Assembly: GCF_009363255.1 (NCBI RefSeq)
Contig: NZ_CP045318.1
Coordinates: 410,001 to 474,000 of the forward strand
DNA: 64,000 bases
Reading direction: 5' to 3'
Source: Roseivivax sp. THAF197b
GTDB taxonomy: Bacteria; Pseudomonadota; Alphaproteobacteria; Rhodobacterales; Rhodobacteraceae
Below are positions 41,283 through 48,696 of the stretch, one piece after another; position 1 is the first letter of the stretch; each line of letters starts with the position of its first letter. Under the pieces are notes generated by a model. That model saw nothing but the letters and a program-made list of their open reading frames with translations, was not told the DNA's origin and searched no databases. The position numbers and the translations under genes are program-made.

Positions 41283-42518
<1,236 letters not shown>

Positions 42519-43354: not shown

Positions 43355-43852
43355 ATGAGCATCCATTCCCCTCTGGGGCAGGCTGGGCAAGCCAGCTTCA
43401 TGATAACCTATCTCGATGCGCTGTCGCTGGTGGAGCGACTGCATCGGCTGTTGCTCGACGTCATAAAGGACGAATTCGAGCGGGTCGGCATCTTGCAGAT
43501 CAATGCCGTGCAGGCGTTGTTGCTGTTCAATATCGGCGACAATGAAGTCACCGCCGGGGAGCTGAAGACGCGCGGCTATTACCAGGGCTCGAATGTCAGC
43601 TACAATCTCAAGAAGTTGGTCGAGGCGGGGTATATGCACCACCAGCGCTGCGAAATCGACCGCCGCGCCGTGCGCGTGAAGCTGACCGACAAGGGCCAGG
43701 AGATCCGCGCTTTGGTGGAGCAGCTATTCGCCCGGCATGCGGAAGGACTGGAAGGGAAGGGCGTTCTGGGCCCCGACGGTCTGGAAGACATCACCCATGC
43801 GCTTCGCCGGGTGGAGCGGTATTGGACCGATCAGATCCGCTATATCTACTAG
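43355..43852 (+). CDS. MarR-family winged-helix regulator, LdtR-like
   Basis: 165 aa. Winged-helix core from ILQINAVQALLLFNIGDNEVTAGEL through RGYYQGSNVSYNLKKLVEAGYMHHQRCEIDRRAVRVKLTDKG. The GYYQGSNVSYN recognition helix and overall length match LdtR, a MarR-type regulator of alphaproteobacterial envelope and stress genes. Which genes it controls cannot be told from the window. The SD is agcggagacagcg. Confidence 0.82.
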   Translation: MSIHSPLGQAGQASFMITYLDALSLVERLHRLLLDVIKDEFERVGILQINAVQALLLFNIGDNEVTAGELKTRGYYQGSNVSYNLKKLVEAGYMHHQRCEIDRRAVRVKLTDKGQEIRALVEQLFARHAEGLEGKGVLGPDGLEDITHALRRVERYWTDQIRYIY

Positions 43853-43917: not shown

Positions 43918-44658
43918 TTAGCCCGGCGGAGTGTCGACGGACGTGCCGCGCGGTGCGGGTTCGGCTTCACCCACGACGAGGTTGCTGATCTCGCGGAACA
44001 GCTTGCGCGTCATCGCGCGGCGATAGCCCTCATAGCCCTCTGACAATTCCACGAAGGCATTGGGCCCGTGCATGACGTTGAACTCGTAGTAATCGGCGAC
44101 CATCGGATCGGCGCCCAGTATGGCGAGCCCGTTCACCGTCACCCCTTGGAAGGGGAAATGTTTGTAAGCAAGATCAGGGCCGAAGCCGTCATTGGTGATC
44201 CCGTCGCCCGAGACATCGATCACCCGGCGCGCACAGTCTGGTCCGCGCGTCAGCAATGTCGCCCCATATCCCAGCGCGTAGCCCATCGCCGTCGGGAAAC
44301 GGGTCTGCGACCGCGGGAAGGCGCGCAGCTGGGCGATGGCCCGGTCGATGTCGGCATCATCACGCAGCGCGGTCCAATCCAGCACCAAGGCATTCTGACG
44401 CCGCCCGCTCCATTCATAGACCGCCAGCGCCACGTGACCTGGGCCGGAGAGGATCGCCCGGCGGATATCTGGATCGCCCAGGGCCGCGGCCGCCCCGTCG
44501 CGCTGGAGGATGTATTCCCGGTCATCGACCGAGCTCGAGACATCGAGCGCCAGGACAAGGGCGAGACGGCACGCGGCCGCCTGCGCTGCAGCGCCTTGCG
44601 CTAAACCTGCCGACAGCACGAGAGCCGTCAGCAGGGATGTCAGCACGGATCTTACCAA
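43918..44658 (-). CDS. DUF1194 von Willebrand factor A-like secreted protein
   Basis: About 246 aa. Signal peptide (LLTALVLSAGLAQGAAAQA), then a VWA-type domain with a MIDAS-like motif ALDVSSSVDD, GPGHVALAVYEWSG, and RRVIDVSGDGITNDG. These are typical of DUF1194. The start codon is TTG 44658 or GTG 44646; ATG exists only inside the upstream glyoxalase gene. It lies just after the glyoxalase stop on the same strand and is likely cotranscribed. Function unknown, probably periplasmic. Confidence 0.8.
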   Translation of the reverse strand: MVRSVLTSLLTALVLSAGLAQGAAAQAAACRLALVLALDVSSSVDDREYILQRDGAAAALGDPDIRRAILSGPGHVALAVYEWSGRRQNALVLDWTALRDDADIDRAIAQLRAFPRSQTRFPTAMGYALGYGATLLTRGPDCARRVIDVSGDGITNDGFGPDLAYKHFPFQGVTVNGLAILGADPMVADYYEFNVMHGPNAFVELSEGYEGYRRAMTRKLFREISNLVVGEAEPAPRGTSVDTPPG

Positions 44659-44662
44659 GGTC

Positions 44663-45097
44663 TTACCAATGGCCCGTGTTTTCCATGGACGCCCAGGGCT
44701 CCTGCGGCTCTTTCGCATCGCCCTTCTGCAACAGCTCCACCGAGACGTTGTCGGGCGAGCGCACGAAGGCCATGTGCCCGTCGCGGGGCGGACGATTGAT
44801 GGTCACACCCGCATCCATCAGGGTCTGGCACATCTCGTAGATGTCATCCACGCGGTAGGCCAGATGCCCGAAATGGCGGCTGTCCGAGGGCAGGCCGTCA
44901 TCGCCGTCCCAGTTATAGGTCAGCTCCACATCGGCGCGTCCATCGTCCTGATCGGGCGGGCACAGGAAGACGAGCGTGAAGCGGCCCGCTTCCACATCCT
45001 TGCGCATCCGCTCCTTCAGGCCGAGGAGCTTGTAAAATTCGATGGATTTTTCGAGGTCCTTCACGCGGACCATCGTGTGCAGATATTCGATGGACAT
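44663..45097 (-). CDS. gloA: Lactoylglutathione lyase (glyoxalase I)
   Basis: Isomerises the methylglyoxal-glutathione hemithioacetal to S-lactoylglutathione. 144-aa VOC-fold protein. The metal ligands are visible in order: His in LHTMVRVKDLEKSIEFYK, Glu in ADVELTYNW, His in RHFGHLAYRVDD, Glu in SVELLQKG. Length is close to the usual 130-140 aa. It is followed on the same strand by the DUF1194 gene. Confidence 0.93.
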   Translation of the reverse strand: MSIEYLHTMVRVKDLEKSIEFYKLLGLKERMRKDVEAGRFTLVFLCPPDQDDGRADVELTYNWDGDDGLPSDSRHFGHLAYRVDDIYEMCQTLMDAGVTINRPPRDGHMAFVRSPDNVSVELLQKGDAKEPQEPWASMENTGHW

Positions 45098-45183: not shown

Positions 45184-46578
45184 TCAGAAGGCGGATTTGA
45201 TACCGAAACTGACGCTCACTTCCTCGGTATCGAAGCGGCTGACATTGCTGTCTCGGTTCTGAGCGGTCACGCTGACCTCCGGCACGAAGCCCGCATAGTC
45301 GAGCGCGCCGAATTCCATGTTCAGCCCCACCGCCCAGGCGCGGTCCTGCCGTCCGCCCGGCACATCGAGCACGCCGACGATGTAATCGGGGTAATCTTCC
45401 TCGCGCAGTGAGACCTGCCCGGTCAGCCCGATGCCCAGGACCGGGCGACCATGCGCATAGCTCACGCTGATGCCCTGCGCGGTGCCGTCCTGAAAGGTGT
45501 TGCGCGGATCGCTGGTCTGGCCGCTGATCGTGCCGTCGATGCGGCTGCCGCCGGGCAGCGCGAAGCTGAGGCCGAGCTGGAGCGTGCGGTAGGTTTCCAC
45601 GTCATCCGGATAGGCCTCCGGCGTGCGGTCTTCCTGCGAGAAGGCGGTTGAGAGACGCAGCTTGTCGGTCAGCAGGACCCAGCCCTCGACCTGGCCCTTG
45701 CGGAAATCATGCAACTCCGCGCCGCCATACCAGGTCCGCCCGCCGGTCACGGTCAGTCGTCCGCCCGCGCGGCCTCCGGGCAGGATCGCATCCTGCTGCA
45801 GACCGGCCGTCATGGTGGTCTGGTCGAAATCCGAATCGCTGAGGTCAGGGGCCTGGTCCTCGGCATCCGCACTCAGATCGACCCGTCGCTCGAACTGGGA
45901 ATACAGCAGACGGGTCCGCCATAGATCGCCTTGGGCGATCCGGTAGGACAAATCGACCGAGGCGCGCGCCTCGACCCCGTCCAACGCCTGTGCCGAGCCC
46001 GACAGGATGCCCACCGCGTCCTGGCCCGCAATGGTGTTGTACTCGTCCGAGGAGCCGTCATTTACGTTGGACGAGGGCGTGATCGAGGCAGCGATGTTGA
46101 AGCGGAACGGGTTGATGGCCCGCACCCGGCGATAATCGCGCGCGACGACGGCTTCGGCCTGGGCATTCGGGGCGGTCTGATATGCGCGGCGAAGCCAGTA
46201 TTGCGACAGCGTGTAATGCTCTTCGGCCAATGCGGCCCGCGCGGCAATCGACGAGGCAGCAAAGCGGGCGTCCGGCTCATCTGCGAGGCGGAACATGCGC
46301 CGAGCGGCCTGCCGCGCCTTGGTCGGTGACTTTCGGGCCTCGGCGGCCTTGGCGGTCAGGTAATGCGCCTCGACATCGTCTGGATCGGCCTTCAAAAGCC
46401 CCGCGATGATCGCCTCGGCTCCGTCGATATGCCCGAAACGTATGAGCTCGAGCGCCATCTGCCGCGCTTCGGGGCGCGACATGGCCAAAGCCTGTTTCGG
46501 ATCATCGGACGCGGAGACGGCGCCCCCGATCGGGGCGCCGCAAGTCAGCAGGATCGCAAGGGATGCGGCAAGGCGCAT
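45184..46578 (-). CDS. Slam-like outer-membrane translocon (surface lipoprotein assembly modifier)
   Basis: 464 aa. Signal peptide (MRLAASLAILLTCGAPIGG) then TPR-like helices (about 38-145: ALELIRFGHIDGAEAIIAGL, DDVEAHYLTAKAAEA). The DUF560 barrel starts with INPFRFNIAASITPSSNVND, a Slam-type junction, and continues with alternating strands to a terminal Phe (SVSFGIKSAF), the outer-membrane barrel signal. Slam proteins move lipoproteins to the cell surface (type XI secretion). The neighbouring lipoprotein gene, 3 nt upstream in the same operon, is the likely substrate. Identified by pattern, not by alignment. Confidence 0.8.
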   Translation of the reverse strand: MRLAASLAILLTCGAPIGGAVSASDDPKQALAMSRPEARQMALELIRFGHIDGAEAIIAGLLKADPDDVEAHYLTAKAAEARKSPTKARQAARRMFRLADEPDARFAASSIAARAALAEEHYTLSQYWLRRAYQTAPNAQAEAVVARDYRRVRAINPFRFNIAASITPSSNVNDGSSDEYNTIAGQDAVGILSGSAQALDGVEARASVDLSYRIAQGDLWRTRLLYSQFERRVDLSADAEDQAPDLSDSDFDQTTMTAGLQQDAILPGGRAGGRLTVTGGRTWYGGAELHDFRKGQVEGWVLLTDKLRLSTAFSQEDRTPEAYPDDVETYRTLQLGLSFALPGGSRIDGTISGQTSDPRNTFQDGTAQGISVSYAHGRPVLGIGLTGQVSLREEDYPDYIVGVLDVPGGRQDRAWAVGLNMEFGALDYAGFVPEVSVTAQNRDSNVSRFDTEEVSVSFGIKSAF

Positions 46579-46581
46579 GGA

Positions 46582-47589
46582 TTACGGGTTGACCTGATTG
46601 CACAGCGCGTCGTTTGCCGCGGCGGTGCCGCATTGCTCGAGCGTGAAGACGCCCCATTCCAGTTCGTTCTCAAGACCGAGCTGATTGCTCGTGCCATCGA
46701 TCTGGTCCAGCTGGATGCCCCCGACGATGGATTGCGCATTGTCGCCATCGAATTCGCCCGCGTAGCTGCCGACTGCAATGTCGTCGATGCCCTGCCAGTC
46801 AGGATCGCTTTGTTGCAGCGAGTATTCCACGGTCCCCGTGAAGGCACCGGCGTCGGTGATCTCGGTATTGACGAGGACGACGGAAGGCAGGCTGTTGCCG
46901 GTATCGGTGATCTCGCGGTCGTAGATGTTCCCCTCGACGCGATTGTCGGCGAAATCCGCGTTCATGAAGACGGTGCCGGTGACCTCGGCCGCCTGGCTCG
47001 GGATAAGCTCTGCGGGGGTCGTGGGATCGACCGGGAGCAGGTCTTCACCCGATCCGCCGCCATTGAGCAGACCCACATACCGCCCGACATAGGAGACAAG
47101 ACCCGTCGTGTTGCTGACCTGAGGTGCGGAATAGGTGCCCGACGTCTCGTAGTAATCGCCGGTGAAATACTCGTTGTAGGGTCCGCCTGTCGCAACGACC
47201 GTCGCGCGCGCGCCGGTCGAGGTCGTATTGGTGTAGGCCGTGGCGTGCCGGTCCAGCGCGTCGTCCTGCTTGGTATAGGCTTCGAACCCGTTGCGATCGA
47301 GCGCGGGTGCTCGCGTATAAACCGCCTCATAGGGCGTATCGTCGAGATAGATGCCTTCGACGAGAAGGGTATCCGAGGCCGAGTCGTAGCTGACATTGCT
47401 GACGTTGCGCGCGATGTTTTGCGGGATGCGTGCCGCGTCCTCGTCATCCGTGCCGCCATTGCCGCCGCCCGTATCGTCGTCCTCTTCTTCCTCGGCGCCG
47501 CGGGAGATCGGGTTGTCGCCGCTGCCTCCACCGGAGTCGCACGCGGAAAGTATCGCCAGCGCGATGAGCATTGCAAGAATGCGCGTCAT
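46582..47589 (-). CDS. TbpB-like barrel lipoprotein, likely Slam substrate
   Basis: 335 aa. The lipobox is ALAILSAC with Cys at about residue 17, followed by a Gly/Ser and acidic linker (SGGGSGDN ... EEEEDDDTGGG), typical of surface lipoproteins. The folded part is beta-rich. The C-terminal half (about 215-325) resembles the TbpB-type eight-stranded barrel: TGTVFMNADFADNRVEGNIYD, TGTVEYSLQQ, GSYAGEFDGDNAQSIVGGI. Two Cys near the C-terminus (EQCG, DALCNQ) may pair. First gene of the operon with the Slam homologue; ligand unknown. Diverges from thyX with 198 nt between. Confidence 0.78.
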   Translation of the reverse strand: MTRILAMLIALAILSACDSGGGSGDNPISRGAEEEEDDDTGGGNGGTDDEDAARIPQNIARNVSNVSYDSASDTLLVEGIYLDDTPYEAVYTRAPALDRNGFEAYTKQDDALDRHATAYTNTTSTGARATVVATGGPYNEYFTGDYYETSGTYSAPQVSNTTGLVSYVGRYVGLLNGGGSGEDLLPVDPTTPAELIPSQAAEVTGTVFMNADFADNRVEGNIYDREITDTGNSLPSVVLVNTEITDAGAFTGTVEYSLQQSDPDWQGIDDIAVGSYAGEFDGDNAQSIVGGIQLDQIDGTSNQLGLENELEWGVFTLEQCGTAAANDALCNQVNP

Positions 47590-47787: not shown

Positions 47788-48696
47788 ATGACCCTGACCC
47801 CCGAGCAACAATCCGAAATCGACGCGCAGCGCGCGCAGACCAGCACCACGCTGCGCGCCACCGCCGCGGGGATGGAGCAGCATCTCTACACCGCGATCCC
47901 CGTGCTCGATCACGGATTTGTCCGGGTCATCGACTATATGGGCGACGACGCGGCCATCACGCAGGCCGCGCGGGTTTCCTACGGGAAAGGCACCAAGGCC
48001 GTGTCGAACGATGAGGGGCTCATCCGCTACCTCATGCGCCACTGGCACTCGACGCCCTTCGAAATGTGCGAGATCAAGCTGCACGTCAAACTGCCAGTCT
48101 TCGTGGCACGCCAGTGGATTCGGCACCGGACGGCGAACGTGAACGAGTATTCGGCGCGCTACTCGATCCTCGATCGCGAATTCTACATCCCGGCACCCGA
48201 GCATCTGGCGGCGCAATCGGTGGTCAACAACCAGGGCCGGGGCGAGGCGCTCTCGGGCGAGGAAGCCGACCGCGTGCTCCGCTACCTGCGCGACGACGCG
48301 ATGCGCGCCTATGACCACTACGAGGAGATGATCTCGGACGAGGACCAGCAGGGCCTCGCCCGCGAATTGGCGCGGATGAACCTGCCCGCCAACATCTATA
48401 CGCAATGGTACTGGAAGGTGGATCTGCACAATCTGTTGCACTTCCTGCGCTTGCGCGCGGATTCCCATGCGCAATACGAAATCCGCGTCTATGCCGAGGC
48501 GCTTTGCGAGGTCGTGCGCGATTGGGTGCCCTTTGCTTACAAGGCCTTCGAGGATTACCGCATGGGCGGCGCGACCCTGTCGTCGGGCGCCCTGGACTGC
48601 GTGCGCCGGATGCTGAAGGGCGAGGAAGTCACGCAGGAAAACTCCGGCATGTCCAAGGGCGAATGGCGGGAGTTCATGGGGGTTATTGAGGGCTAA
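47788..48696 (+). CDS. thyX: FAD-dependent thymidylate synthase ThyX
   Basis: Makes dTMP from dUMP using methylene-THF and NADPH via FAD. 302 aa. The diagnostic motif [15 protein letters not shown] (RHRxxxxNxxSxRYS) is intact, and the FAD/dUMP-binding region [17 protein letters not shown] precedes it. The C-terminus has the [19 protein letters not shown] helix. No thyA is seen nearby. Confidence 0.96.

Follow-up and report, generated by a model that had tools for sequence, protein, structure and literature searches.

Results

A lipoprotein and a TPR/barrel protein are encoded in tandem

The window analysed here is a 64,000-nucleotide stretch of the Roseivivax sp. THAF197b chromosome (contig NZ_CP045318.1, positions 410,001 to 474,000). 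On its reverse strand, two genes separated by 3 nt encode a lipoprotein of 335 residues and, downstream, an outer-membrane protein (OMP) of 464 residues, in which a tetratricopeptide repeat (TPR) domain precedes a barrel (Table 1). A preliminary description, made from the letters alone, had proposed a type XI secretion system (T11SS), or Slam-like, pair: a lipoprotein with a Gly/acid-rich tether and a TbpB-like C-terminal barrel, a TPR/barrel protein with the junction motif SITPSSNVND and a terminal Phe, and no adjacent TonB receptor. These points, as well as the 3-nt spacing, which the coordinates and strand of the open reading frames (ORFs) confirm, agree with the results below. The order thyX / lipoprotein / OMP / glyoxalase (glo) is found repeatedly across the family, so the architecture of the pair is beyond chance.

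The N-terminus of the lipoprotein, MTRILAMLIALAILSAC, is followed by a Gly/Asp/Glu-rich stretch. A signal peptidase II lipobox, LSAC, is read at residues 14-17, and a pattern search found a lipobox in 73 of 76 syntenic homologues, hereafter called cargos. The AlphaFold2 model, built from a 62-row homologue alignment, has a mean confidence (pLDDT) of 87.6 and shows a beta handle followed by a C-terminal part of 8 long strands (strand counts in this and the OMP model were taken by eye from DSSP lines). Its top fold matches in the PDB are factor H binding protein (fHbp), hemophilin/HphA, NHBA, HpuA, LbpB and TbpB, and NHBA we take to be a Slam substrate. Searches of PDB sequences gave nothing useful with the single sequence and weak matches only with a profile (best E 0.24). 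Over the 62 rows, the mean share of the commonest residue is 0.67 in a motif of the handle (residues 85-122), 0.57 in the barrel and 0.29 in the tether; the conserved type I handle motif is a candidate ligand site. TbpB, LbpB, HpuA and fHbp are Slam substrates (PMC5449769, PMC8406197), and hemophilin is secreted by a T11SS-type route (PMC8406197).

In the OMP, the AlphaFold2 model (58 rows, pLDDT 92.8) shows 7 TPR helices and 14 long strands, the strand number that the preliminary description had suggested checking. The N-terminal domain matches TPR_16 (E 3.5e-7, 31 bits, cut-off 32.7), and TPR folds are among the PDB matches. N171 and N173 of SITPSSNVND are invariant across a 78-row alignment, and the C-terminal Phe is present in 78 of 81 homologous proteins from the surveyed loci. 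With the Pfam family SlipAM (DUF560), matches at E<=1 are obtained for 69 of the 78 syntenic OMPs, the best at 4.2e-11, and matches at E<=0.1 for 37 of the 58 OMPs in the alignment. Against PDB sequences, the single-sequence search gave nothing useful and the profile search, among the best 60 of 132 hits, gave TPR-type proteins.

Both proteins are single-copy in the genome according to profiles A1 and A2; profile A4 adds one weak TPR-only match. Pfam PF04575 had no match in this genome, and equally none in the control genomes, so that this search is uninformative. A search of a large protein set gave 59 homologues of the OMP and 109 of the lipoprotein, the window's own included in each. Some of the OMP homologues are named 'surface lipoprotein assembly modifier', and the closest named source of homologous proteins is Roseivivax sp. 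CAU 1753. Many homologues of the barrel lipoprotein (P0061, P0070, P0078, P0091, P0095 and others) carry the database name 'thymidylate synthase', a name probably transferred from the adjoining thyX.

Downstream of the lipobox Cys, a pattern of [NQES]P plus a hydrophobic residue within 16 residues was found in 59 of 72 cargos and in 0 of 13 other lipobox ORFs of the same loci; the pattern had been broadened after inspection of the cargos missed by NP (47 of 72), and the control ORFs were chosen by a stricter lipobox pattern. This leader motif is possibly a sorting or export signal.

A cargo gene adjoins almost every OMP gene at the slot

The survey covered 160 genomes, each from a different genus of the family. 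Of these, 95 match the OMP profile, some weakly or partially, and 72 the cargo profile, all within the 95 when the two lists were compared by eye. From the strong OMP matches, 80 loci besides the window were taken; six genomes were excluded (gene fragmented or at contig ends). The ORF directly upstream of the OMP gene matches the cargo profile A2 in 72 of the 77 loci that keep thyX or glo, window included. Of the remaining five, three (L041, L065 and L069) carry a lipobox ORF at this position. The other two, L043 and L073, lack one, and their genomes show cargo-like hits on other contigs; in the genome of L043 (G055), where the slot contains the OMP gene and no cargo gene, there are two such hits, on contigs C52 and C31. 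In-frame stops were reported in three cargos of the 160-genome search. They were also reported for six congener cargos, yet each of these matches sits inside one open reading frame, and the idea of broken congener cargos was dropped.

Among the 76 cargos, TbpB_B_D matches 21, FHBP_C 28 and slam_lipo 35 at E<=1. By sequence criteria, an adjacent cargo is thus nearly universal at the slot, mostly below profile thresholds. In the published cluster 3 T11SS loci, TbpBBD was exceptionally rare (8 of 145 loci; PMC12282271, Grossman et al. 2025). Since a cargo is found at the slot in 72 of 77 loci and TbpB_B_D in only 21 of 76 cargos, this rarity is plausibly a limit of the profile. The 145 loci include some outside the thyX-glo slot, which are not counted like the 77.

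Outside the slot, eleven loci (L083-L093) hold more distant T11SS-like OMPs, with a lipobox ORF upstream in 8 of the 11, some of only about 230 residues. L083 carries two cargo-like ORFs, and a scan of 8 ORFs gave TbpB_B_D above cut-off in L083 and weakly in L087.

The pair appears to be present, absent or replaced largely as a unit

The slot was read in all 52 genomes having thyX and no OMP match, with 66 syntenic OMP loci having thyX for comparison. In 50 of the 52, glo is still found upstream of thyX and divergent from it. The gap between the two genes is then at most 450 bp in 40 of the 50 (median 182 bp), versus 2.0-3.5 kb in 61 of the 63 OMP loci with glo (median 2,676 bp). The ten longer gaps without OMP match include one with an orphan cargo and four with an ORF of no assigned family. 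The orphan cargo gene, at L134 (G156), has a lipobox-like start and no OMP gene. In L098, L122, L125 and L133, an ORF of 289-320 codons with hydrophobic stretches replaces the pair.

Over 137 loci, the slot holds both genes in 75, neither in 58, the OMP gene only in 3 and the cargo gene only in 1. A quick tree built from the flanking proteins of 120 loci requires at least 27 changes in the presence of the pair, 9 of them forced by well-supported branches; the tree is unrooted, and gain and loss are not distinguishable on it. Of 10 independent pairs, usually 9 (range 7-9) show OMP and cargo changing jointly, and none is opposed.

We consider it very probable that the two genes form a T11SS (Slam-type) surface-display cassette, occupying a fixed slot in which the pair is found, missing or replaced largely as one piece. 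Several points weigh against it. Unit behaviour has exceptions, an OMP without cargo in L043, L073 and L154 and a cargo without OMP in L134. The OMP and cargo searches scored no more than the top 10 and 13 candidates of each genome, respectively, and distant copies elsewhere may escape. The host trees are quick ones, with 25 of 117 branches well supported in the presence tree and 9 of 55 in the tree used for cargo types below. In the slot of L154 (G062), the OMP frame is open and encodes a start resembling a signal peptide and the barrel, its TPR part is missing and no cargo was found beside it; a joint loss of TPR domain and cargo is possible.

Cargo and OMP types tend to switch together

For 58 loci, tree distances of OMP and cargo correlate at r 0.52, and still at 0.52 after partialling out the host; 0 of 2000 permutations were as high. 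Correlations with the host are 0.19 for the OMP and 0.07 for the cargo. We then defined the window cargo type as an A2 score above 150 bits, which 23 of the 58 loci have. This type changes 18 times on the host tree, where shuffling gives 18.3, and 4 times on the OMP tree, where 0 of 500 shuffles are as low. As far as the sequences tell, each cargo type thus tends to go with its own OMP type, whatever the ancestry of the host.

The clearest contrast is found within the genus, where the pair is present in 8 of 9 genomes surveyed, with thyX seen beside it in seven of those eight; the ninth, G167, has a distant OMP match only (its thyX slot was not read). Between the window and the congener L159, neighbour identities are 97% for thyX, 95% for glo, 95% for the regulator, 92% for the aminotransferase and 88% for DUF1194, and those of the pair are 31% (OMP) and 35% (cargo). 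With L156 the situation is reversed: the neighbours are more distant (75-92%) and the pair is closer (OMP 56%, cargo 50%). Between the window and L159, homologous DNA (84-90%) reaches as far as 45141, a point 44 bp beyond the start of glo. It begins again within the cargo gene, immediately after the lipobox, at 47521 by megablast or 47440 by blastn. The leader and the region upstream of it are visibly alike in both. Homology breaks at the pair are also present in other loci compared. Exchange through the conserved flanks is the simplest reading, and sorting of old duplicates or fast divergence would fit the contrast between L159 and L156 poorly.

One may ask whether the two genes have simply diverged fast in place, without exchange, the types being old fast-evolving lineages or sorted duplicates. 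Over 33 loci, the mean p-distance is indeed 0.70 for the OMP and 0.68 for the cargo, versus 0.18-0.24 for the neighbours, and the host trees are poorly resolved. Such divergence does not predict that L159, the closer relative by its neighbours, should have the more different pair, nor that cargo type should cluster on the OMP tree and be scattered at random over the host tree, nor that homology should break sharply. We regard this alternative as unlikely.

Besides the high divergence of the pair and the quality of the host trees, other observations count against joint switching. When only well-supported branches are considered, cargo type changes at least 6 times on the host tree and at least 3 times on the OMP tree. 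In the 33 loci, correlations among the four neighbour proteins reach only r 0.13-0.30, a weak host signal, and OMP-host and cargo-host correlations lie between -0.02 and 0.14; these low values are partly noise, because the neighbour proteins themselves correlate weakly. Finally, a close host pair, L023 and L057, is discordant, with 54% identity for the cargo and 31% for the OMP. Our confidence rests mainly on the within-genus contrast, which the weak host signal does not affect.

Neighbouring genes stay when the pair is gone

In 145 published cluster 3 loci, DUF1194 was found in 102, glyoxalase in 89 and thymidylate synthase in 77, and links to one-carbon metabolism, metals and DUF1194 were discussed, together with functional ties to the neighbours (PMC12282271). 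The same neighbours surround the pair in the window (Table 1). This could mean, as that survey considered, that the pair works together with thyX, glyoxalase and DUF1194 in one operon or pathway, for one-carbon or metal metabolism, or with DUF1194 as the real cargo. However, in our loci glo is next to thyX in 63 of 66 cases with OMP versus 50 of 52 without (Fisher p 1.0), and DUF1194 is near thyX in 45 of 66 versus 30 of 52 (p 0.25; both counts are uncorrected for contig ends). Moreover, thyX is divergent from the pair and not co-transcribed with it. A functional link of this kind is, in our opinion, very unlikely. Since glo and DUF1194 stay where the pair is absent, the published association looks positional, as judged from gene order. 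DUF1194 alone was also considered as cargo or partner and judged unlikely, its frequency near thyX being similar with and without the pair.

No TonB receptor gene is found among the genes read around the pair, and the whole genome gives only two Plug-domain hits, one about 2.1 Mb from the pair and the other on another contig. Uptake via a dedicated neighbouring receptor is therefore not indicated.

Table 1. Features of the pair and its surroundings (positions in the window)
Feature	Position	Strand	Basis or remark
T11SS cargo lipoprotein, 335 aa	46582..47589	-	sequence, weak slam_lipo and TbpB_B_D scores, fHbp/HphA/TbpB fold
Signal peptide and lipobox to Cys17, Asp at +2	47539..47589	-	common to the otherwise different L159 cargo
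Gly/acid-rich tether, residues 18-52	47434..47538	-	low pLDDT; conservation lowest of the lipoprotein
Beta handle, residues 53-160; type I motif ALDRxGYxAYTxQDDxLDRHxTAY	47110..47433	-	alignment and model
C-terminal beta barrel, residues 161-322, predicted translocon-recognition domain	46624..47109	-	weak profiles, model, fold
T11SS/Slam outer-membrane translocon, 464 aa	45184..46578	-	sequence, relatives' SlipAM matches, model
Periplasmic TPR domain, 7 predicted helices	46114..46476	-	
TPR/barrel junction motif SITPSSNVND, N171 and N173 invariant	46057..46086	-	alignments
14-strand outer-membrane barrel, ends in Phe464	45193..46107	-	model, fold matches
Approximate replaced block versus congener L159	45142..47520	.	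limits of DNA homology
thyX, right border of slot, neighbour outside the pair	47788..48696	+	profiles; adjoins glo also without the pair
glo (glyoxalase I-like), left border of slot, neighbour	44663..45097	-	profiles, slot comparison
DUF1194 gene, neighbour	43918..44718	-	profile, slot comparison
MarR-type regulator close to LdtR, neighbour	43355..43852	+	NCBIfam 232.8 bits, cut-off 250
Aminotransferase gene (aspC)	41283..42503	-	label by eye from sequence alone

Discussion

Is the pair a secretion system?

Architecture, fold and family evidence support the lipoprotein and the OMP as a T11SS (Slam-type) pair. The profile search suggested in the preliminary description came out divided. Compared directly, the two proteins stay below the cut-offs, with 11 bits for the OMP against SlipAM (cut-off 22), 18.8 bits for the lipoprotein against TbpB_B_D (E 0.0024, cut-off 26) and 18.5 bits against the NCBIfam model slam_lipo (E 0.0019, cut-off 80), and only among the relatives does SlipAM match widely. 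The assignment is thus carried by the relatives' profile matches and the predicted folds, not by the direct scores.

These low scores are the first argument against a secretion role. Second, Slam is not among the listed PDB fold matches of the OMP, which are led by the cellulose-secretion barrels (BcsC) and porins, CymA and OmpG; this lack is no evidence against Slam identity. Third, an Asp (Asp18, 47536-47538) directly follows the lipidated Cys17, and in E. coli this residue at +2 is a signal for retention in the inner membrane. The same residue is found at +2 in 12 of 73 cargos, and these bacteria may therefore not follow the retention rule. Alternatively, there is no translocation, the lipoprotein being an ordinary one that faces the periplasm and has a small barrel, and the OMP a porin with a TPR domain. 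This would fit the porin-like fold matches and the Asp, and is very unlikely in view of the SlipAM matches of the relatives, the invariant NxN junction, the leading lipoprotein fold matches, which are known Slam substrates, and the near-obligate pairing of cargo and OMP.

A model for display and exchange

In a T11SS working as in the known family, the lipoprotein would be exported by Sec and lipidated at Cys17. Lol would then carry it to the outer membrane, the protein being held unfolded, perhaps by a Skp-like protein. In the studied system, Slam1 is the translocon and Skp the holdase (PMC9090332); the present genome encodes one Skp/OmpH-like protein. The TPR/14-strand translocon, whose gene lies 3 nt downstream, would recognise the C-terminal barrel and bring the lipoprotein out to the surface of the cell. 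Handle and barrel would fold there at the tip of the flexible tether, and are predicted to bind a ligand. A hemophore or transferrin-type function was not adopted, there being no TonB receptor nearby and only two in the genome, and the ligand may not be an iron-binding host protein, as the preliminary description had suggested.

Type switching would arise by recombination through the conserved flanks, and selection on the exposed protein may drive it. More broadly, we propose, with middling confidence, that the interval between thyX and glo serves as a place on the chromosome where genes for surface display are exchanged. Recombination in the conserved flanks and in the conserved upstream, leader and lipobox region would swap the exposed domain together with its dedicated translocon, cargo and exporter forming a matched and mutually exclusive allele, and selection at the surface (by phage, grazers, hosts or a niche ligand) would drive the turnover.

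Three consequences follow from the survey. The genes thyX, glyoxalase and DUF1194 say little about function, as they stay when the system is gone. Whether cluster 3 mainly uses barrel cargo was left open in PMC12282271; the slot comparison answers from sequence that, at the slot, the cargo is almost always there. Lastly, natural matched alleles of cargo and OMP that switch between close relatives are a ready set for tests of T11SS cargo specificity.

Comparison with known systems

In iron piracy of the TbpB/TbpA type, a TonB-dependent receptor is encoded with the lipoprotein, whereas the window pair has none nearby. The hemophilin HphA subfamily (TXISS-1B) has mostly soluble cargo with an SPI signal (PMC8406197), in contrast to the lipobox found here in 73 of 76 cargos. 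The pair is closer to Neisseria Slam1 and Slam2 with TbpB, LbpB, fHbp and HpuA (TXISS-1A), which have the same TPR plus 14-strand translocon and lipidated handle-barrel substrates, some encoded beside the translocon (PMC5449769, PMC8406197). It differs from them by a very low sequence similarity, a single handle-barrel lobe and the lack of a TonB receptor nearby.

The locus type is already published, and this pair is a further case of the cluster 3 marine T11SS, its cluster 3 membership being read from the syntenic thyX, glyoxalase and DUF1194 locus. Grossman et al. described this locus in 11 strains, with T11SS OMP, thymidylate synthase, glyoxalase and DUF1194, and a barrel cargo lipoprotein in 10 of the 11; all experimentally verified T11SS belong to cluster 1 and none to the marine cluster 3 (PMC12282271). 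In the open-licence literature we found no further report on the marine thyX/T11SS locus, and we found no joint switching of cargo and OMP in the available text of PMC12282271. New in the present analysis are the comparison of slots, the corrected view of the neighbours and of how often cargo occurs, and the joint cargo/OMP switching. The likeness to the marine cluster 3 locus of the Rhodobacteraceae/Roseobacteraceae (PMC12282271, Fig. 8) is close, with an identical syntenic gene set and a published cargo of 282-375 residues; relative to that account, our reading differs in that the cargo stands at the slot in 72 of 77 loci and that the neighbours stay without the system.

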